A stretch of DNA of 64,000 nucleotides from Pseudomonadota bacterium (GTDB lineage Bacteria; Pseudomonadota; Alphaproteobacteria; Acetobacterales; Acetobacteraceae). Of the stretch, positions 5,764 to 51,762 are shown piece after piece. A program made the translations under genes and the position numbers. The notes under the pieces were generated by a model. The model searched no databases. It worked only from the letters and a program-made list of their open reading frames with translations, and was not told the origin of the DNA. Positions within the stretch are counted from its first letter, which is position 1. Every line of letters begins with the position of its first letter. The DNA is taken from contig JAJZVV010000006.1 in the NCBI GenBank assembly GCA_021845595.1, positions 1 to 64,000 of the forward strand, read 5' to 3'.

Positions 5764-5893
5764 CTAGAGCACGGTCCGACCTGATGCAATCATCTGGTCG
5801 GACGGTCGTGCTCTAGAAACATATGACTCTAGAGCAACTTATCTCCGATCTGCCCGAGCCGGAACGGCTCAGTCAGATCGGAGGTTGCTCTAG
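5764..5893. repeat. Composite palindromic element, type 1, copy A
   Basis: Two hairpin modules separated by 12 bases. Module a (5764-5816) has arms CTAGAGCACG and CGTGCTCTAG plus an inner GTCCGAC pair. Module b (5829-5893) has arms CTAGAGCAAC and GTTGCTCTAG with inner CTCCGATCTG-like arms. The whole 130-bp unit recurs, inverted and of equal length, at 16460-16589. It lies between the divergent DUF2075 and enolase-superfamily genes, in the region that should carry their promoters. No open frame of interest is present. It resembles REP/MITE-like non-autonomous repeats. Confidence 0.85.
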
Positions 5894-14329: not shown

Positions 14330-15673
14330 ATGCCCGACCTGACCCTGCACAACAGCTTCTCCCGCCGGCGCGAACGATTCGAGCCGCTGGATGCCTCCCA
14401 TGTGCGGGTCTATGTCTGCGGGCCGACGGTCTATGACCGGCCACACATCGGCAACGCCCGCCCCGCGGTGGTGTTCGACGTGCTGGCGCGGCTGCTGCGC
14501 CGGCTCTATCCGCGCGTCACTTATGTCCGCAACATCACCGACGTGGACGACAAGATCAACGCCCGCGCCGCCGAATCCGGCGAGCCGATCGCGGCCATCA
14601 CCGCGCGCACCACCGCCGACTACGAGGCGGACATGGCGGCACTCGGCGTCCTGCCGCCCGATGTCGAGCCGCGCGCGACCGGCCACATCGCGGCCATGAT
14701 CGCGTTGATCGAACGGCTGATCGCGGGCGGCCACGCCTACGCCGCGGATGGGCACGTGCTGTTCTCGGTGGCGAGCTTCGCCGAGTATGGCCGCCTCTCC
14801 GGCCGCAGCCCCGACGAGCTTCTCGCCGGCGCGCGCGTCGAGGTCGCGCCCTATAAGCGCGATGCCGGCGATTTCGTGCTGTGGAAACCCTCCACGCCCG
14901 ATCTGCCTGGCTGGGCGAGCCCGTGGGGACGCGGCCGGCCGGGCTGGCATATCGAGTGCAGCGCGATGTCGCATCAATATCTCGGCGAAAGTTTCGACAT
15001 CCACGGCGGCGGCGGCGACCTTCTGTTCCCACACCACGAGAACGAGCGCGCCCAGAGCCTGTGCGCATTCCCCGGCAGCCGGTTCGCGCGCTACTGGGTG
15101 CATAACGGCATGCTGCTGGTGAACGGCGAGAAGATGTCCAAGAGCGTGGGCAACGTCATCACCGTTCAGGATGCCCGCGCGCGGGCGCCCGACGAAGCCG
15201 TGCGGCTCGCCCTGCTGAAGACGCATTACCGTGCCGTGCTGGATTTCTCGGACGCCTCGCTGGCCGAGGCGCGGCACGATCTCGACCGGTTCTATCGCGG
15301 CCTGGAACGATCCGGCGCCGGCGCGGCGGCCGCGCCCCCCGCGTCGGTCCTCGCGGCGCTGTGCGATGATCTGAACACGCCGCTGGCGCTGGCCGAGATG
15401 CATCGGCTCGCGAACGCGGCGATGCAGGGCGATCCGGCGGCCGGCGCCGAACTGCGCGGCGCCGGCACGCTGCTCGGCCTGCTCGCCGCGGACCCGGCGG
15501 CGTGGTTCCGCAGCGGCGGCGAGGATCCCCGCATCGACGCGCTCGTCGCCGAACGCACCGCCGCGCGACGGGCGAAGGACTTCGCGCGCGCCGACCAGAT
15601 CCGCAAGGAACTCGATGCTCTCGGCGTCGTCGTCGAGGACGGCGCCGGCGGCACCACCTGGCGGCGGACATGA
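14330..15673 (+). CDS. cysS: Cysteinyl-tRNA synthetase
   Basis: A 447-residue class I aminoacyl-tRNA synthetase that charges tRNA-Cys. The HIGH-type motif PHIGN (38-42) follows YVCGPTVYD, whose Cys30 is the first zinc ligand. The other ligands fall in IECSAMS and PHHENERAQ. The KMSKS loop is [15 protein letters not shown]-type anticodon domain fills the C-terminus ([22 protein letters not shown]). The length is near normal. ATG 14330 follows GAAGGAG. The next gene starts at a GTG one base after this stop, indicating translational coupling. Confidence 0.96.
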
Positions 15674-15674
15674 T

Positions 15675-16463
15675 GTGACCGGACGCGACGCAGGCGCGCC
15701 GATCGGGCCGATCGATCCGAGCCCGGTCGTGGTTCTCGTCCGCCCGCAGCTGGCGGAAAACATCGGCGCCGTCGCGCGCGCCATGGCCAATGGCGGGCTG
15801 TTCCACCTCCGCCTCGTCGCCCCGCGCGATGGCTGGCCGCAGGAGCGCGCCTGGCGCACCGCCTCGGGCGCCGACCGCATCCTGGAGGCGGCAACGGTCC
15901 ATGACAGCGTCGCCGACGCGGTCGCGGACCTGCACCGCGTGTTCGCCACCTGCCCGCGCCCGCGCCATATCATCAAGCCGCTGCTCACCGCGCGCGGCGC
16001 GGCCTCGGAACTGCGGGCGATCGGCGCGCGCGGACTGGGTTGCGCGATCCTGTTCGGCCCCGAGCGGGCCGGCCTGGACAATGACGACATCGCCGCCGCC
16101 GACACGCTGGTGCGCTACCCGCTCAATCCCGCCTTCGCGTCACTCAACCTGGCGCAGGCGGTGATGGTGATGGCCTATGAATGGTGGCTGGCGGCGGACG
16201 CGACCCAGCCGCGCCGGCTGCTGACCCACAAGACCCGGATCGCGACCAAGGGCGAGCTGGAGAATTTTCTCGGCCACCTGATCGAGGAACTCGATGCCTG
16301 CGGGTTCCTGCGCAACCTGCCCAAGCGCCCGGGCATGGTGCGCAACCTGCGCCATTTCTTCGAGCGCGGCGAAGTGACCGAGCAGGAGCTGCGCACGCTG
16401 CACGGCGTCGTCACCGAGCTCGCGCTCGGACGGCGCCAGCGCGGACGCGACGAACCTGCCTAG
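15675..16463 (+). CDS. trmJ: SPOUT RNA methyltransferase, TrmJ type
   Basis: A 262-residue SpoU/TrmH-family methyltransferase. The N-terminal block VVVLVRPQLAENIGAVARAM and the knot-forming motifs CAILFGPERAGLDND and YPLNPAFASLNLAQAV are diagnostic of TrmJ, which 2'-O-methylates position 32 of tRNAs. The helical C-terminal extension (LTHKTRIATKGELENFLGHL) is also typical of TrmJ. The GTG start lies one base after cysS. The stop codon TAG (16461-16463) is the first full triplet of the palindromic element that follows, so the element's end now defines the C-terminus. Confidence 0.88.
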   Translation: MTGRDAGAPIGPIDPSPVVVLVRPQLAENIGAVARAMANGGLFHLRLVAPRDGWPQERAWRTASGADRILEAATVHDSVADAVADLHRVFATCPRPRHIIKPLLTARGAASELRAIGARGLGCAILFGPERAGLDNDDIAAADTLVRYPLNPAFASLNLAQAVMVMAYEWWLAADATQPRRLLTHKTRIATKGELENFLGHLIEELDACGFLRNLPKRPGMVRNLRHFFERGEVTEQELRTLHGVVTELALGRRQRGRDEPA

Positions 16464-16589
16464 AGCAACCTCCAATCTGATTGAGCCGTTCCGGCTCGAT
16501 CAGATCGGAGATAAGTTGCTCTAGACTCATAGGCTTCTAGAGCACGACCGTCCGACCGGATGATTCCATCAGGTCGGACCGTGCTCTAG
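16460..16589. repeat. Composite palindromic element, type 1, copy B (inverted)
   Basis: The reverse complement, in module order and spacing, of the element at 5764-5893, and also exactly 130 bp. Module b (16460-16524) comes first, then a 12-base spacer matching the other copy at 9 of 12 positions, then module a (16537-16589). It overlaps the trmJ stop codon and ends 16 bases before the nusG stop, between convergent genes. It could serve as a bidirectional terminator. In most bacteria rplK follows nusG; here the element and trmJ do. Confidence 0.88.
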
Positions 16590-29912: not shown

Positions 29913-30845
29913 ATGAGCGTCGCTCTGTTCACCCACCCCGCCTGCCTGGAGCACGATACCGGCCCCTGGCACCCGGAATGCGCCGATCGTCTGCGCGCCG
30001 TGCTGCGCGCGCTGGAGGCTCCGGAATTCGCCGATCTGCTGCGCGAGCAAGCGCCGCGCGCGACCCGCGCCGAGCTCGAACGTGTCCACCCACCGGACTA
30101 TGCGGAGGCAATCCTTTCCATCGTGCCGCCCGCAGGCGAGGCTGTCGGGCTCGACGCCGACACGCTGATGAGCGCCGGCAGCGCCGAGGCGGCGCTGCAT
30201 GCCGCGGGCGGGGCCGTCGCGGCCGTGGACGCGGTGATGGAGGGCTGGGCCCGCGCCGCCTTTGCCGCGGTGCGCCCGCCCGGCCATCACGCCGAGCCGC
30301 GCGCGGCGATGGGGTTCTGCCTGTTCTCCAACGCCGCCATCGCCGCCTTGCACGCGCGCGAGCACTGGCGCGTCGGACGCGTGGCCGTGGTCGATTTCGA
30401 TGTCCACCACGGCAACGGCACGCAGGCGGTGTTCGCCAACGATCCCGACCTGTTCTACGCCTCGAGCCACCAGCATCCGGCCTATCCCGGCACGGGGCGG
30501 GCCGAGGAGCGGGGCATCGCCGGCAACATCGTCAACGCGCCGCTGCCACCGGGCAGTGATGGCGCGGTTTTCCGCCGCGCCTGGGACGAGCGCATCCTGC
30601 CCGCCCTCGCCGACTTCGCGCCCGAACTGCTCATCATCTCCGCCGGTTTCGACGCCCACAAGGCCGACCCGCTGGCGCATCTGCGCCTCGAAACATCGGA
30701 TTTCGCCTGGGTCACGGCGCGGCTCATCGCGCAGGCGGATGCCAGCGCCAAGGGGCGCATCGTCTCCGTGCTCGAAGGCGGCTACGACCTCCCTGCCCTC
30801 GCCGCCTCCGCCGCGGCCCATGTGCGGGCGCTGATGCGGGCCTGA
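29913..30845 (+). CDS. Histone-deacetylase-fold amidohydrolase
   Basis: A 310-residue zinc enzyme of the class II HDAC/acetylpolyamine amidohydrolase group. The tandem active-site histidines are His125-His126 (RPPGHHAEP), and zinc ligands come from [12 protein letters not shown] (Asp163, His165) and [12 protein letters not shown]. The C-terminal SVLEGGYDL loop is also canonical. Bacterial members deacetylate acetylated polyamines, acetoin-related or protein lysine substrates; the target here is unknown. The presence of an ornithine decarboxylase in the same window makes polyamine metabolism one option. It follows tusA by 10 bp. The stop is three bases before a composite palindromic element. 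Confidence 0.9.
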
Positions 30846-30848
30846 CCG

Positions 30849-31016
30849 CTAGAGCGGGATGACATCGCTTACGCTCAGCCATCCCACTCCAGCTCTTTGT
30901 TTAATCGCGTGATTCAGACCTACGGCGATTCCGCCTACGGTCATCACGCGTTAGAGTCTCTGCTTGATCGCGTGATTCAGACCTACGGCGATTCCGCCTA
31001 CGGTCATCACGCTCTA
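30849..31016. repeat. Composite palindromic element, type 2, copy C (with duplicated module)
   Basis: Module c (30849-30896) has CTAGAGCGGGATG and CATCCCACTCCAGCTCT as imperfect arms. Module d follows twice: an identical 46-bp core at 30904-30949 and 30967-31012, period 63 bp, each with outer arms GCGTGAT and ATCACGC and an inner imperfect hairpin. The right end CTAGAGC-type sequence, read leftward, gives the stop codon TAG of the TRAP permease (31014-31016). The element separates two convergent genes. The single-copy counterpart is at 49604-49707 in opposite orientation. Confidence 0.88.
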
Positions 31017-32861
31017 GCCAGAGACGGCGAGCCACGGAAAGGCGGCCACCAGCACGACGGCGACCAGCAGGATGGCGAGATAGGGCCAGATTTTCGCGAA
31101 CGCCTCGTCGGGCGGAACCCGGCCGATGGCGCAGGCGGCATAGAAGCCGACGCCGAACGGCGGCGCGAACAGCCCCAGCCCCATCGCCAGCACCACGACG
31201 ATCGCATAGTGCACCTCGTGCACGTGCAGCGCCCGGGCGGCGGGGAACAGCAGCGGGCCGAACAGGATGATGGCGGGAATTCCCTCCAGCACCGAGCCGA
31301 GCACGGCGAAGGCGACGATGGACACGGCGAGGAACCCGGCCTTGCCGCCCGGCATCCCCGTCATCGCCGCCACCAGCGCACGCGCGAACCCGGACTGGGT
31401 CAGCGCCCAGCCCATCGATGTCGCCGTGCCGATGATGAACAGGATGGCCCCGGAGAGCGAGGCGGTCTCGACCAGGATCGCGCCCAGGCGGCGCCAGTCG
31501 AAGCTGCGATAGACGAACAGACCCATGACGATGGCATAGGCCACGCCGAGCGTGGAGACCTCGGTCGCGGTGGCGATGCCGTCGACGACGGCGGCGCGGA
31601 TCATGAACGGCAGCGCGAGCGCCGGCAGGGCGATGAGAAAACGGCGGGCGATCTGGCCCAGCCCCGCGCGCGCCACGCGCGGACCCGGCTCCCGCCGCGC
31701 CTGCAGGAACACCACCAGTGCGAGGCCGATGGCGCCGACGAGAGCGGGGAGCAGCCCGCCATCGAACAGGCCGGCGATCGAAACCCCGGTGACGGACCCG
31801 ATGGTGATCAGCACCAGACTCGGCGGGATCGTCTCGGCCATCGCGCCCGAGGAGGCGAGCAGCGCCACCAGCCGGCCCGGATCGGCGCCGCGCGCGCGCA
31901 TCTCGGGAAACAGCGCCGGCGCCACCGCCGCCATGTCCGCTGCCTTCGAGCCGGAAATGCCCGAGACCAGATACATCGCCGCGATCAGGACATAGGACAG
32001 CCCGCCGCGGACATGGCCGAGCAGCGCGGAGAGGAAGTCGATGAGCGCGCGCGCCAGCCCGGTCATTTCGATCAGCAGGCCGAGAAATACGAACAGCGGC
32101 ACGGCCAGCAGCACCAGCCCGGTCATGCCGCTGTCCATCCGGCTGACCACGATGGAGAGCGGGATGTGCGTCACCAGCGCGAGATAGGAGAGCGTCGCGG
32201 TGCCGAAGGCAAAGGCGATCGGCACGCCAATGCCGACCGCGACCGCGACGAGGACGACGAAGAAGAGAACGAGATTCCAGTTGCCAAGCCCGATCAGCCA
32301 CGGACGGGCCAGGAACAGCGCCAGCGCCAGCGCCACCACCACGGCCATCGCCAGCAGCCCGCCCCGCGTCCCGGCAGCGACGAACAGACGATGCGCGGCC
32401 AGCACCAGCATCAGCACCGCGGCGGCGAGGATCGCGGCCACGCGCAGCCCATCGGGAAATTCCAGCGCCGGGGACGTGATCTGCCACTGCTCGAGCGCAT
32501 AGTCGTAGGCAGGAACGACGATCTCGAGAACGAACACGGCCACCACCGCGGCCGCGAGCGCGTGCAGCCGGGCGGCGAGCCGCGGCCCGGCCAGCGCCAC
32601 CACGGCACCGAGGCGCATATGCTCGCCGCGGGCCAGCGCGATCACCGCGCCGAGCATGGCCAGCCACAGGAACACCGCCCCCGCGAGCTCGTCCGACCAG
32701 ACCAGCGGCGCGTCGAACCCGTAGCGCGACACCACGCCGGCCAGCAGCAGCACCACCTCGACGACGACGAGCATTGCGGCCAGCCACTCGCAGCCCCGCA
32801 GCAGCAGCCCGATGCCGCCCCGCACGGGCGGGCGCGCGGGCGGACGCGCCGGCCCCGTCAC
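31014..32861 (-). CDS. TRAP transporter permease, fused small and large subunits (DctQM)
   Basis: A 615-residue inner-membrane protein. The N-terminal 165 residues match the four-helix DctQ subunit (VVSRYGFDAPLVWSDELAG is its signature). The rest is the 12-helix DctM part (VPLFVFLGLLIEMTG, SGISGSKAADMAAVAPAL, ASSGAMAETIPPSLVLI). TRAP systems use Na+ to import organic acids captured by a periplasmic DctP protein, but no DctP gene is nearby. The gene begins three bases after the end of tal-pgi and is probably in that operon. Its stop codon TAG belongs to the palindromic element downstream. Confidence 0.9.
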   Translation of the reverse strand: MTGPARPPARPPVRGGIGLLLRGCEWLAAMLVVVEVVLLLAGVVSRYGFDAPLVWSDELAGAVFLWLAMLGAVIALARGEHMRLGAVVALAGPRLAARLHALAAAVVAVFVLEIVVPAYDYALEQWQITSPALEFPDGLRVAAILAAAVLMLVLAAHRLFVAAGTRGGLLAMAVVVALALALFLARPWLIGLGNWNLVLFFVVLVAVAVGIGVPIAFAFGTATLSYLALVTHIPLSIVVSRMDSGMTGLVLLAVPLFVFLGLLIEMTGLARALIDFLSALLGHVRGGLSYVLIAAMYLVSGISGSKAADMAAVAPALFPEMRARGADPGRLVALLASSGAMAETIPPSLVLITIGSVTGVSIAGLFDGGLLPALVGAIGLALVVFLQARREPGPRVARAGLGQIARRFLIALPALALPFMIRAAVVDGIATATEVSTLGVAYAIVMGLFVYRSFDWRRLGAILVETASLSGAILFIIGTATSMGWALTQSGFARALVAAMTGMPGGKAGFLAVSIVAFAVLGSVLEGIPAIILFGPLLFPAARALHVHEVHYAIVVVLAMGLGLFAPPFGVGFYAACAIGRVPPDEAFAKIWPYLAILLVAVVLVAAFPWLAVSG

Positions 32862-47548: not shown

Positions 47549-47708
47549 ACACCGGCCGCCCTCGGCGCACGATTTCGGACCGGCTGATCCGCGCTCCGGT
47601 GGCGGATTTTGATTTCCGCTTGATGGCTTCTCCCGCGATTGCGGATGGCGCCTTGACGCCGTGGCGGGCCATGGTCCCGATCCCATGAACGCCTCGGGAC
47701 ATTGGACC

Positions 47709-47792
47709 ATGCTCGATCTGATCTTCATCCTGCTCGGCGCCGGCGGCATTCTGCTGATGGCCGGCTATGCGGCGCTCTGCGCCTGGATCTGA
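47709..47792 (+). CDS. 27-residue hydrophobic peptide upstream of kdpF
   Basis: ATG to TGA, 27 residues, nearly all one transmembrane helix (LDLIFILLGAGGILLMAG, then CAWI). It is too short for routine gene callers. It ends three bases before kdpF and has the same start (MLDLI) as KdpF, so it may be a duplicated KdpF-like subunit or a leader peptide. Similar tiny frames are seen before kdpF in other proteobacteria, to my knowledge without assigned function. No obvious ribosome site, so translation is uncertain. Confidence 0.5.
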   Translation: MLDLIFILLGAGGILLMAGYAALCAWI

Positions 47793-47795
47793 GCG

Positions 47796-47885
47796 ATGCT
47801 GGACCTCATTCTCGGCGGCGGCGTATCGCTCGCGCTTCTCGTCTATTTGCTCTGGGCCCTGATCCGACCCGAAGATCTGATCTGA
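47796..47885 (+). CDS. kdpF: KdpF, small K+-ATPase stabilising subunit
   Basis: A 29-residue single-helix protein (MLDLILGGGVSLALLVYLLW, ending ALIRPEDLI). The ALxRPE ending and position 11 bp before kdpA identify it. KdpF stabilises the KdpABC complex in the membrane. Confidence 0.85.
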   Translation: MLDLILGGGVSLALLVYLLWALIRPEDLI

Positions 47886-47896
47886 GGGAGACGCCC

Positions 47897-49606
47897 ATGA
47901 CCATCAGCGGCTGGGCCGAAGTCGCGCTCACGCTTGCCCTCATCCTCCTCGCCGCCTGGCCGGTCGGGCTCCATATCGCCCGTGCGGTCGAAGGCGAGCG
48001 GACCTTTCTTCACCCGATCCTTGCGCCGCTGGAGCGTGTGCTCTATGCCGCCGCCGGCGTCGATCCAGAGCGCGGCATGGGCTGGCAATCCTATGCCTCC
48101 GCTTTGCTGGTCCTGAACGCGCTGCATTTCCTGATGCTCTACGCCATGCTGCGGCTGCAATGGGTCCTGCCGCTCAATCCGGACCACCTCGCCGGCATGT
48201 CGCCCCGCCTCGCCTTCAACACGGCGATGAGCTTCGTTACCAATACCAACTGGCAGGCCTATAGCGGGGAGACCACGCTCTCGCCTGGCAGCCAGATGTG
48301 GGGCCTGACCTCGCATATGTTCGTCTCCGCCGGCACGGGCATCGCCGCCGCGGTCGCGCTCGCGCGCGCGTTCGCGCGTGGCGGGATGGAGACGCTGGGG
48401 AATTTCTGGGCCGATCTCACACGCATCGTCCTCTACGTGCTGGTGCCGATCGCCATCGTCGCCGGTCTCGCGCTGGTCGCGCTCGGCGTGCCGCAGACCC
48501 TCGCCACGCACGCCGATGCCACCACGCTCGAGGGCGCGCAGCAGACCATCTCGATGGGCCCGGTGGCGCTGATGGAAGCGATCAAGGAGCTCGGCACCAA
48601 CGGCGGCGGCTACTTCAACGCCAACAGCGCGCATCCGTTCGAGAATCCCAACGCCTGGTCGAGCCTTCTGGAAATGCTGCTGGTGTTCCTGATCCCCATC
48701 GGCCTCACCTTCACCTTCGGGCGTATCGTCGGCGATCCGCGCCAGGGCCACGCGCTCCTGGCGGTCATCGGGATTTTCGTCGTCGCCGCGGTCGCCTGCG
48801 CCTACGCGGCCGAAGCGCATGCCAATCCGCTGCTGACGGCGCTCGGCGTCGACCCGCCTCAAGGCAATCTCGAAGGCAAGGAAATCCGCTTCGGCATCCC
48901 CCTCTCGGTGCTGTTCAACGTCATCACCACCGCAACCTCGTGCGGTGCGGTGAACGCGATGCTGGACAGCTTCATGCCGCTCGGCGGCATGGTGCCGATG
49001 TTCCTGATCCAGCTCGGCGAGATCGTGCCCGGTGGCGTGGGCTCCGGTCTCTATGGCCTGCTGGTGTTTGCCCTGCTCGCCGTCTTTGTCGCGGGGCTCA
49101 TGGTCGGGCGTACCCCGGAATATCTCGGCAAGAAGATCCAGGCGAAGGAAGTCAAGCTGGCCATGCTCGCCGTGCTGATCCTGCCCTTGTCCATTCTGGG
49201 CGGCACCGCCTTGTCCCTGGTTCTGCCGCAGGTGGCCGCCTCACTCGGCAATGCCGGCCCGCATGGCCTCTCGGAAATGCTCTACGCCTTCACCTCCGCC
49301 ACCGGCAACAACGGCAGCGCCTTCGCCGGACTATCGGCGGACACGCCCTGGCTCGACACCACGCTCGGCATCGCCATGCTGCTCGGCCGCTTCGCCTTCC
49401 TCGTTCCGGTGCTCGCGCTGGCCGGCTCGCTTGCGGCGAAGGTGAAGGTTCCGGCTTCGAGCGGCACGTTCCCGACCCATGGCCCCCTCTTCGTCGGGCT
49501 TCTCGTCGGTGTGATCGTGATCCTGGGCGGGCTGCAGTTCATGCCGGCCCTCGCGCTCGGCCCGCTCGCCGAGCATTTCGTCCTGTTCGCCGGCAAGACC
49601 TATTAG
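47897..49606 (+). CDS. kdpA: K+-transporting ATPase subunit A
   Basis: A 569-residue, 10-helix potassium-channel-like subunit. Four selectivity-filter-type loops are visible: VTNTNWQAYSGE, GTNGGGYFNANSAHP, TTATSCGAVNAM and SATGNNGSAFAG. It supplies the high-affinity K+ path that KdpB powers. ATG 47897 follows GGGAG. The stop codon TAG (49604-49606) is part of the palindromic element that separates it from kdpB by 113 bp; the other kdp genes are 12-19 bp apart or overlap. Confidence 0.98.
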   Translation: MTISGWAEVALTLALILLAAWPVGLHIARAVEGERTFLHPILAPLERVLYAAAGVDPERGMGWQSYASALLVLNALHFLMLYAMLRLQWVLPLNPDHLAGMSPRLAFNTAMSFVTNTNWQAYSGETTLSPGSQMWGLTSHMFVSAGTGIAAAVALARAFARGGMETLGNFWADLTRIVLYVLVPIAIVAGLALVALGVPQTLATHADATTLEGAQQTISMGPVALMEAIKELGTNGGGYFNANSAHPFENPNAWSSLLEMLLVFLIPIGLTFTFGRIVGDPRQGHALLAVIGIFVVAAVACAYAAEAHANPLLTALGVDPPQGNLEGKEIRFGIPLSVLFNVITTATSCGAVNAMLDSFMPLGGMVPMFLIQLGEIVPGGVGSGLYGLLVFALLAVFVAGLMVGRTPEYLGKKIQAKEVKLAMLAVLILPLSILGGTALSLVLPQVAASLGNAGPHGLSEMLYAFTSATGNNGSAFAGLSADTPWLDTTLGIAMLLGRFAFLVPVLALAGSLAAKVKVPASSGTFPTHGPLFVGLLVGVIVILGGLQFMPALALGPLAEHFVLFAGKTY

Positions 49607-49707
49607 AGCGTGATGACCGAAGGTGGAATCGCCGTAGGTCTGAATCACGCGATCAAACAGAGAGCTAGAGTGGGATGGCGGAGCGAAGGCGATGTCATCC
49701 CACTCTA
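49604..49707. repeat. Composite palindromic element, type 2, copy D, inside the kdp operon
   Basis: A reverse-oriented, single-copy version of the element at 30849-31016. Module d (49604-49650) has outer arms GCGTGAT and ATCACGC; module c (49666-49707) has perfect 12-bp arms TAGAGTGGGATG and CATCCCACTCTA. It begins with the kdpA stop codon and ends 12 bases before kdpB, next to its AGGAGG ribosome site. Two strong stem-loops between two subunits of one complex would be expected to affect transcript processing or partial termination. Confidence 0.88.
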
Positions 49708-49719
49708 AGGAGGCAAGGG

Positions 49720-51762
49720 ATGGCCACGCACGCGAAGGCCGCCGCGATCGCTTTGTTGGACGGCCCGATCCTCACCCGCGCCATGGCCGATGCCGTGCGC
49801 AAGCTCGACCCGCGGCAACTGGTCCGCAATCCAGTCATTTTCGTCACCGAAGCGATCTCGGCCCTGGTCACGGTGCTGGGTCTGCGCACCATCGCCACTG
49901 GCGGGTCCGGGGGTTTCGCCCTCGCCATCGCCGCGTTCCTGTGGCTGACGGTGTTGTTCGCGACCTTCGCCGAGGCCGTGGCGGAAGGCCGTGGCCGGGC
50001 GCGGGCGGACAGCCTGCGCCGGGCACGCACCGAAACGCTGGCGAAACGCCTGCTGAATCCCGCCGATCGCGCGCTCTTCGAGCCGACGCGGGCGAACGAT
50101 CTAGCCGTGGGCGATCACGTCCTGGTCGAGGCCGGAGACCTGATCCCGTCCGACGGCGAGGTCGCCGAAGGCATGGCGAGCGTGAACGAAAGCGCCATCA
50201 CCGGCGAATCCGCGCCCGTGATCCGCGAAGCCGGCGGCGATCGCAGCGCGGTGACCGGCGGCACGCAGGTCGTCTCCGACTGGCTGGTGGTGCGCATCAC
50301 TGCAGCACCCGGCGCGACTTTCCTCGACCGCATGATCCGGCTGGTCGAAGGCGCGGAGCGACGCAAGACACCGAACGAGATCGCGCTGGACATCCTGCTC
50401 GCCGGCCTGACCATCATTTTTCTGATCGCCGTGGTGACGCTGGTCGGGCTCGCGCACTATTCGGGAACGGCCCTGGGCGTGCCGGTGCTCGCCGCCCTCC
50501 TCGTCTGTCTGATCCCGACGACCATCGGCGGGCTGCTCTCGGCGATCGGCATCGCCGGGATGGACCGGCTAGTCCGTTTCAACGTCATGGCGACCTCCGG
50601 GCGCGCGGTCGAGGCCGCCGGCGACGTCGACACGCTGCTCCTCGACAAGACCGGCACCATCACTCTCGGCAACCGCATGGCCGCCGCCTTCATTCCAGCG
50701 CCGGGAGTGAGCGAGCGCGACCTGGCCGAAGCGGTGGTGCTCGCCAGTCTCGGCGACGAAACGCCGGAGGGCCGCTCGATCCTCGCCTTCGCGCGCGACC
50801 GCTATGCCATCGCGCCCACGCGCCCCGAGACCGCCACGATCGTGCCCTTCACCGCGCAGACGCGCCTGTCGGGGCTCGACCACGACGGCCATTCCTGGCG
50901 CAAGGGCGCCGTCGATTCGGTTCGCCAATGGCTGGGCGGGGCAGAGGCGCCGGCCGGGTTCACCGCCGCCGCCGAACGCATCGCCCGCGCCGGCGGCACG
51001 CCACTCGCGGTCGCCCGCGACAGGCAGTTGCTCGGCGCGATCGAACTCAAGGACATCGTCAAGTCCGGCATCCGCGAACGGTTCGCCGAGCTGCGGCGGA
51101 TGGGGATCCGCACCGTGATGGTCACCGGCGACAACCGCCTCACCGCCGCCGCCATCGCCAGCGAGGCGGGAGTCGACGACTTCATCGCCGAGGCCACACC
51201 GCAGGACAAGCTCACCTATATCCGCCGGGTCCAAGGGGAAGGGCGCCTCGTGGCCATGGCCGGCGACGGCACCAACGACGCGCCGGCGCTGGCCCAGGCC
51301 GATGTCGGGATGGCGATGCAGACCGGCACGCAGGCGGCGCGCGAAGCCGGCAACATGGTCGATCTCGACAGCGATCCCACCAAGCTGATCGAGGTGGTGG
51401 AAATCGGCAAGCAGCTCCTCATCACCCGCGGCGCGCTGACCACGTTCTCGATCGCCAACGACATCTCCAAATATTTCGCCATCCTGCCAGCCATCTTCGT
51501 CGCCGCCTACCCGGAACTCGGGGCCCTCAACGTGATGCACCTGGCCTCCCCGCAATCGGCGATCCTCGCCGCGGTGATCTTCAACGCGCTGATCATCGTC
51601 GCCCTCGTGCCGCTGGCGCTGCGCGGCGTGCGCTTCCGCCCGATCGGCGCCTCGGCGCTGCTGCGGCGCAATCTGCTGGTCTACGGCCTCGGCGGCATCG
51701 TCGCGCCGTTCGCCGGCATCAAGCTCATCGACACGCTGCTCGCCCTCACCGGGCTGGCCTGA
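49720..51762 (+). CDS. kdpB: K+-transporting ATPase subunit B (P-type ATPase)
   Basis: A 680-residue P-type ATPase. Phosphorylation site [12 protein letters not shown] (catalytic Asp), actuator [10 protein letters not shown], nucleotide-binding SWRKGAVDS-type loop and hinge [16 protein letters not shown] are intact. About seven membrane helices. It hydrolyses ATP to drive K+ through KdpA. ATG 49720 follows AAGGAGGCAAGGG; the longer in-frame start at 49675 lies within the repeat element and is rejected. Confidence 0.98.

Follow-up and report, generated by a model that had tools for sequence, protein, structure and literature searches.

The short palindromic elements described here are very probably IS630-type MITEs, for which stop codons serve as safe landing sites. 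They occur in a genome (G000; 3.62 Mb in 50 contigs) from which a single stretch of 64,000 nucleotides (G000:C44:1-64000), hereafter the window, was analyzed in detail; two congeners (G001 and G002) and a member of another genus (G020) were used for comparison. According to the mechanism we propose, a MITE-like non-coding element of the IS630 (Tc1/mariner) type with the ends GAGC...GCTC would take the TA of CTAG as its insertion point, or less often that of TTAG, TTAA or other sequences, and would duplicate that TA. As CTAG is very rare and mostly found outside gene interiors, C-TAG stops and intergenic DNA would be the available, harmless targets. An element landing on a TAG or TAA stop would place its first base, G, behind the left TA and yield TAG again, so that the protein end would be unchanged and the insertion would survive. 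We infer that the pattern arises from the survival of neutral insertions, not from a benefit.

There are 67 element clusters in G000, some of them tandem and some single modules. Modules measure approximately 42–67 nt and combine into two kinds of composites, AB (about 130 nt) and CD (about 104 nt), which at roughly 104–130 nt are too short for a transposase gene. The AB composite consists of two hairpins, and the B module also exists as a variant, B'. Element ends are symmetric (TA-GAGC...GCTC-TA), and both usually read CTAGAGC. An earlier note on this DNA had stated that all modules end in TAGAG(C), which is accurate for most of them, but many D-module ends have lost the TA. Hairpins are very stable in RNA folds: two AB copies have z values of -10.2 and -11.6, and a CD copy has -7.1 on one strand and -5.0 on the other.

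Palindromes of the form TAGAGC...GCTCTA with other interiors are present in relatives. Of 60 genomes searched, a set that includes G000, 39 have at least one pattern match. Matches number 91 in G001, 12 in G002, 124 in G020, 71 in G033 and 26 in G017; low counts may be due to chance. Several sub-families in G020 have different hairpin sequences and one architecture, namely a hairpin, an A/T-rich linker like AAAACAAAG, a second hairpin, and TAGAGC ends. Seven contigs of the G000 assembly (C9, C18, C37, C38, C41, C48, and C49) have their beginning or end at or near elements. The ends of C41 and C48 have the flank GGACAACCTCCATAGCAGCGACA in common, which also lies beside one of the insertion sequence (IS) copies considered below (L224).

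The elements and associated genes in the window are as follows.

5767..5890, no strand: AB element between two divergent genes, with no gene end; TA at 5765-5766 and 5891-5892.
15615..16463, plus strand: trmJ-family ORF (TIGR00050), ending in an element-linked TAG; start at 15675 according to a simple gene caller.
16463..16586, no strand: AB element (B then A module on the plus strand); TA at 16461-16462 and 16587-16588; gives the G of the trmJ stop TAG at 16461-16463.
29913..30845, plus strand: histone-deacetylase-domain gene (PF00850); TGA stop separated by 3 bases from CTAGAGC, whose C is at 30849.
30852..31014, no strand: D-C-C cluster; TA at 30850-30851 and 31015-31016; contributes the G in the minus-strand stop of the TRAP permease.
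31014..32861, minus strand: TRAP transporter DctQM ORF; stop TAG is the complement of 31014-31016.
47702..49606, plus strand: kdpA ORF (TIGR00680), given at its longest extent; stop TAG at 49604-49606; start at 47897 according to the simple gene caller.
49606..49705, no strand: CD element between kdpA and kdpB; TA at 49604-49605 and 49706-49707.

These coordinates bear out the earlier note, which had placed an in-frame terminal TAG as the stop codon at 16461-16463, 49604-49606, and, on the minus strand, 31014-31016. Its gene identities also stand (a trmJ-family gene, kdpA, and a DctQ/DctM TRAP permease), although the best match of the first ORF, to the TrmJ/YjtD family model, scores 156 bits, just below the model cut-off of 167. 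The fourth gene, which the note had called HDAC-like, stops at 30845 and thus 3 bases short of its element, as described there. Window genes mostly end in TGA, again as noted: the simple gene caller gives 41 TGA, 10 TAG, and 1 TAA stops for 52 genes. In congener G001, where the trmJ element is absent, the gene ends with TTAA at the same codon, and the empty site of the D-C-C cluster reads GGGTAGCGGTCAG. For kdpA, both congeners have TGA at the same codon and a junction without the element; a similar stretch lies ahead of the kdpB start at this bare junction in the two genomes. Separately, a 15-base tandem repeat (CGCCCGGGCCCCAGA) occupies positions 22-96 of the window in four to five copies.

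Exact placement on stop codons is real and genome-wide. The G000 clusters have 134 ends, or 126 once 8 that lie too close to the edge of a contig are set aside. Frames that code in the direction of the element were called from a codon-usage score trained on the window, which put 73 ends above the threshold and 53 below it. The stop lies exactly on the terminal TAG in 26 of the 73 coding ends (25 TAG, and 1 that is now TAA), elsewhere inside the element in 3, and before the element in 44; among the 26, C28:396858 scores weakly for coding (33.0) and is a doubtful gene. Chance placement is ruled out by this excess of offset 0 (26 vs. 3; p = 4.5e-10 in a binomial test that expects, from frame alone, about one third of the genes entering an element to stop at offset 0), and the tally of copies across the genome thus places in-frame terminal TAGs above chance. 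If the count is restricted to stops no more than 60 nt from an element edge in either direction, 26 of the 49 fall exactly at 0.

Two further genomes repeat the pattern. In G001, 13 of 43 coding ends have the stop at offset 0 and 3 have it elsewhere inside, a replicate that is not fully independent because at least one site is common to G000. The corresponding numbers for G020 are 19 of 64 (17 TAG and 2 TAA) and 3.

Filled and empty sites could be compared at nine junctions from eight loci, a junction being listed only if at least 9 of 14 bases matched under some model. Duplication of one TA fits best in seven of these, one of which also has a far end without TA. Another model does better at the other two, where the far end is without TA, and by eye both agree with a single TA. 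The layout is gene...TA[GAGC...GCTC]TA..., in which TA from the target and the element's first base G make up the stop, so that TAG and TAA stops would both become TAG. The C before TA belongs to the target rather than to the element, as shown by one site that has G as its left base. At kdpA the far end reads TA followed by A, which points to TAA as the probable original stop, with the G of today's TAG contributed by the element.

The target is mainly CTAG, less often TTAG, TTAA and others. A C precedes TAG in 20 of 25 element-borne stops vs. 13 of the 78 TAG stops in a 464-kb sample (p = 1.3e-8); two of the latter belong to elements, and their removal leaves 11 of 76 for comparison (p = 3e-9). 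Among the 100 G000 cluster ends with a terminal TAG, the preceding base is C in 85 and G in 1. The tetranucleotide itself is scarce, with 162 CTAG per Mb in G000 (elements included) vs. 2746 expected from base composition, a 17-fold depletion. The sample contains 64 CTAG sites outside elements, of which 36 are intergenic, 11 are at stops, and 17 are in coding sequences. Most likely, then, elements are found on stop codons because they aim for CTAG, a tetranucleotide kept out of genes other than where they end.

A further palindrome family, with the motif CTGTCCGSC (TAGCGTCTGTCC / TAGAGTCTGTCC), is located on stop codons or adjoins the elements. Its sites include L134 and L150 in G001, L186 in G002, and the right flanks of the clusters C18:134953 and C4:83462 in G000. 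The occurrence of these palindromes at the same places suggests repeated use of the same sites. One G001 and one G002 gene end look like yet another repeat at stops.

The age of the stops relative to the elements can be read from the congeners, in which we sought the best-matching gene end for the 26 G000 genes and obtained 22 ends in G001 and 25 in G002. The congener stop occupies the same codon in all 22 comparisons with G001 and in 21 of the 25 with G002, a total of 43 of 47; this is the orthologue comparison proposed in the earlier note, and it puts the original stop at the identical codon. No earlier in-frame stop is present in the last 50 codons of the congener genes, with the exception of one diverged G002 end. 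Seven of the 43 same-stop ends carry a known module, three carry a CGTCTGTCC-type palindrome, and two are unreadable (masked or at a contig end). For comparisons without a known element the codon is the same in 31 of 35, with 17 TAG, 4 TAA, and 10 TGA stops among the 31, one or two of which may, by eye, carry a further repeat family. For reference, the 395 genes of the 464-kb sample have 301 TGA, 78 TAG, and 16 TAA stops. The four exceptions, all in G002, comprise a trmJ longer by 4 codons, two genes that read CAG at the site, and one end that has diverged. Congener genes end in TGA in both genomes for 4 genes and in G001 for 2 more, and the stop would have changed in these cases before insertion, or in the relatives.

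Judged from these comparisons, the elements create no new gene ends, the stop having already existed. The note's suggestion that insertion favors or recreates stop codons is supported, with a simpler mechanism than the note had in mind: stops are hit and rebuilt, but no new gene ends arise, the codon position being unchanged in the great majority of comparisons.

How many CTAG sites are available may account for the pattern only in part. Of the clusters with both ends assessed, 24 of 59 are on a stop, vs. 11 of 47 free CTAG sites outside coding sequence (p = 0.066); a looser cluster count of 26 of 60 gives p = 0.04. The elements are also in excess between convergent genes, where we find 14 of the 43 clusters with both sides called, vs. 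1 of the 33 free sites of CTAG (p = 0.005 when all context classes are compared), element and free-site contexts having been classified by slightly different rules. This excess may reflect some retention bias or function. Purging of promoter insertions or a mild benefit would each explain both the higher share on stops and the convergent excess.

A stronger version of the argument is that the elements are adapted for silence at gene ends. Their design would combine a target avoided by coding sequence, CTAG, with a first-base G that turns TAG or TAA into TAG, making stops a dedicated safe harbor that is conserved across genera while interiors turn over, and retention at convergent ends for a 3'-end function may apply as well. 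We regard this as a tentative possibility that is rather doubtful at present.

The earlier note had also proposed that the elements are recruited as portable stop-plus-terminator cassettes. On such a reading they would be retained at gene ends for stopping both transcription and translation, or for shielding the 3' ends of mRNA. The stable hairpins of AB and CD copies would suit such a role, as would the excess between convergent genes and the order of parts in the CD type, which when read from D to C has the D hairpin followed by a T-rich stretch (in G000 and G020). We nevertheless find the proposal unsupported and very unlikely, for its stop half conflicts with stops that pre-exist at the same codon, including those in 31 of the 35 comparisons that have no known element, and the terminator half with a scan in which no canonical terminator was found inside the elements at either of two loci. 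Searching for a GC stem-loop followed by a T run, with loops of 3-8 only, gave 0 sites in 30700-31160 and a single site in 49450-49850, outside the element. One copy, moreover, lies between kdpA and a full-length kdpB.

The orientation of CD elements also argues against the cassette, as they meet stops by the C end and not in the hairpin-plus-T-rich orientation for that gene. For G000 and G020 combined, stops coincide with 23 of 40 coding C ends vs. 4 of 52 D ends (p = 3e-7), and the C end is the one involved in 23 of the 27 CD-type elements that touch a stop. This polarity may be partly a matter of target asymmetry, because it is weaker among sites preceded by C (11 vs. 4, p = 0.12, hand counts).

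To return to the IS630 reading, a profile search for PF13358 identified 4 places in G000 and 21 in G020, and no match in G001 or G002, for which the fragmented assemblies are a possible reason. One of the G000 places (L222) is an IS630-family element of about 1.05 kb in a CTAG context, with terminal repeats GAGCGTTTTCCGATCAG / GAGCGTTTTCCGACCAG and TA on both sides. Its transposase matches NF033545 (E = 9e-41), with the second reading frame above the cut-off and the first, at 39 bits, below it. A second copy (L224) is identical to L222 over 1050 bases and has TC rather than TA as its left flank, so TA is found at 3 of 4 ends of the two IS copies. At the other two G000 places (L219 and L226) we saw no TAGAGC ends.

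Past the GAGC, IS ends resemble the modules only in part. In an anchored comparison the G000 ends match at 11-12 of 18 positions and the best G020 end (L221) at 14 of 18, vs. a median of 7 for 124 other TAGAGC sites of G000, 122 of which score 10 or less. The L221 end matches a local palindrome at 19 of its first 20 bases. Remaining IS ends are moderate, at 8-12 of 18, with only 8-10 of 18 for the left and right ends of L223 and the right end of L225 in G020 when set against G020 modules. The anchored comparison distinguishes most ends from background sites, and local alignment of IS ends with modules does so poorly. Taken together, we infer that an IS630 transposase probably moves the elements, and the comparison makes IS630 a candidate source of the palindromic repeats with GAGC ends in these bacteria.

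The IS5 family (IS427/IS870-like) is another CTAG-targeting group whose transposase could act as the mobilizer. In its favor, a PF13340 element in G001 (L409) has CTAG at its ends, and IS870 needs CTAG according to a title in the reference list of PMC6471742. The ends of L409, however, are GTCCTGTGGAC, unlike GAGC, and at the remaining PF13340 loci (L410-L412) none of the listed repeat seeds, at most six per locus, has GAGC ends. With repeats this different we set the IS5/IS427 origin aside as very unlikely.

Insertion inside genes with truncation, in which only in-frame TAG cases survive, has in its favor that the G002 relative reads CAG at the site in two loci and has the longer trmJ. The congener stops at the same codon oppose it, as does the original codon deduced from the far end of the element. 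All 15 G000 cases with an intact far end give TAG or TAA (11 are without one), as do 13 of 13 cases in G001 and 18 of 18 readable cases in G020 (one was not found), the chaining used for G001 and G020 being rough and liable to halt at an inner module. A tyrosine codon never occurs at the far end among the readable cases of G000, G001, and G020. Truncation is largely refuted by these two lines of evidence and seems extremely improbable to us.

Least probable of all, and rejected, is that these are REPs that a RAYT (Y1/HUH) transposase mobilizes and that supply TAG stops through their GTAG tag: GTAG-class REPs are reported, in PMC3733652, as frequent providers of TAG stops to flanking ORFs, but the ends here are symmetric (TA-GAGC...GCTC-TA) instead of carrying a tag on one side, TAG follows C in 85 of 100 ends and G in 1, and the Y1 transposase PF01797 was found in 0 of 3 genomes of the genus (G000, G001, and G002) with a control that was positive in 5 named genomes including E. 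coli, which speaks against the REP/RAYT route.

Several known systems resemble the elements in one respect or another. IS870 is an insertion sequence of the IS5 family from Agrobacterium vitis. Its CTAG target makes a TAG stop, as the title of Fournier et al. (1993; cited in PMC6471742) puts it; that stop completes the IS's own ORF, whereas here it is the stop of the host gene that is rebuilt. IS630 of Shigella sonnei prefers the TA in 5'-CTAG-3', again going by a title (Tenzen and Ohtsubo, 1991; cited in PMC2170065). It is an autonomous IS, unlike the elements here, and our literature search found no report of genome-wide stop-codon landing by it.

The RUP of Streptococcus pneumoniae is described in PMC2229807 as a 107-bp intergenic element with 108 copies and TA at the insertion point, whose terminal repeats are like those of IS630-Spn1, an IS630-family IS. 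The likeness to RUP and IS630-Spn1 extends to a short intergenic element, insertion at TA, and IS630-like ends. Unlike RUP, the elements here are bipartite double hairpins that prefer C-TA-G and are very often exactly on stops, in a genome that probably belongs to the Acetobacteraceae. GTAG REPs likewise are palindromic repeats whose ends often give the TAG stop of flanking ORFs (PMC3733652), and they differ from the present elements, for which no RAYT gene was found in G000, G001, or G002, and which have symmetric ends and a TA duplication. The literature search found no account of these elements or of stop rebuilding, which is not proof of absence. What we consider new is the rebuilding of pre-existing stops by a probable IS630-type MITE with its own first base, as demonstrated by empty sites and by three genomes.

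For annotation, the findings carry a warning that element-borne TAG ends are genuine, conserved gene ends and not truncations. For the biology of these bacteria, they point to a testable route by which a bacterial mobile element may spare its host, through a target tetranucleotide that is purged except at stops and a stop that is rebuilt upon insertion.
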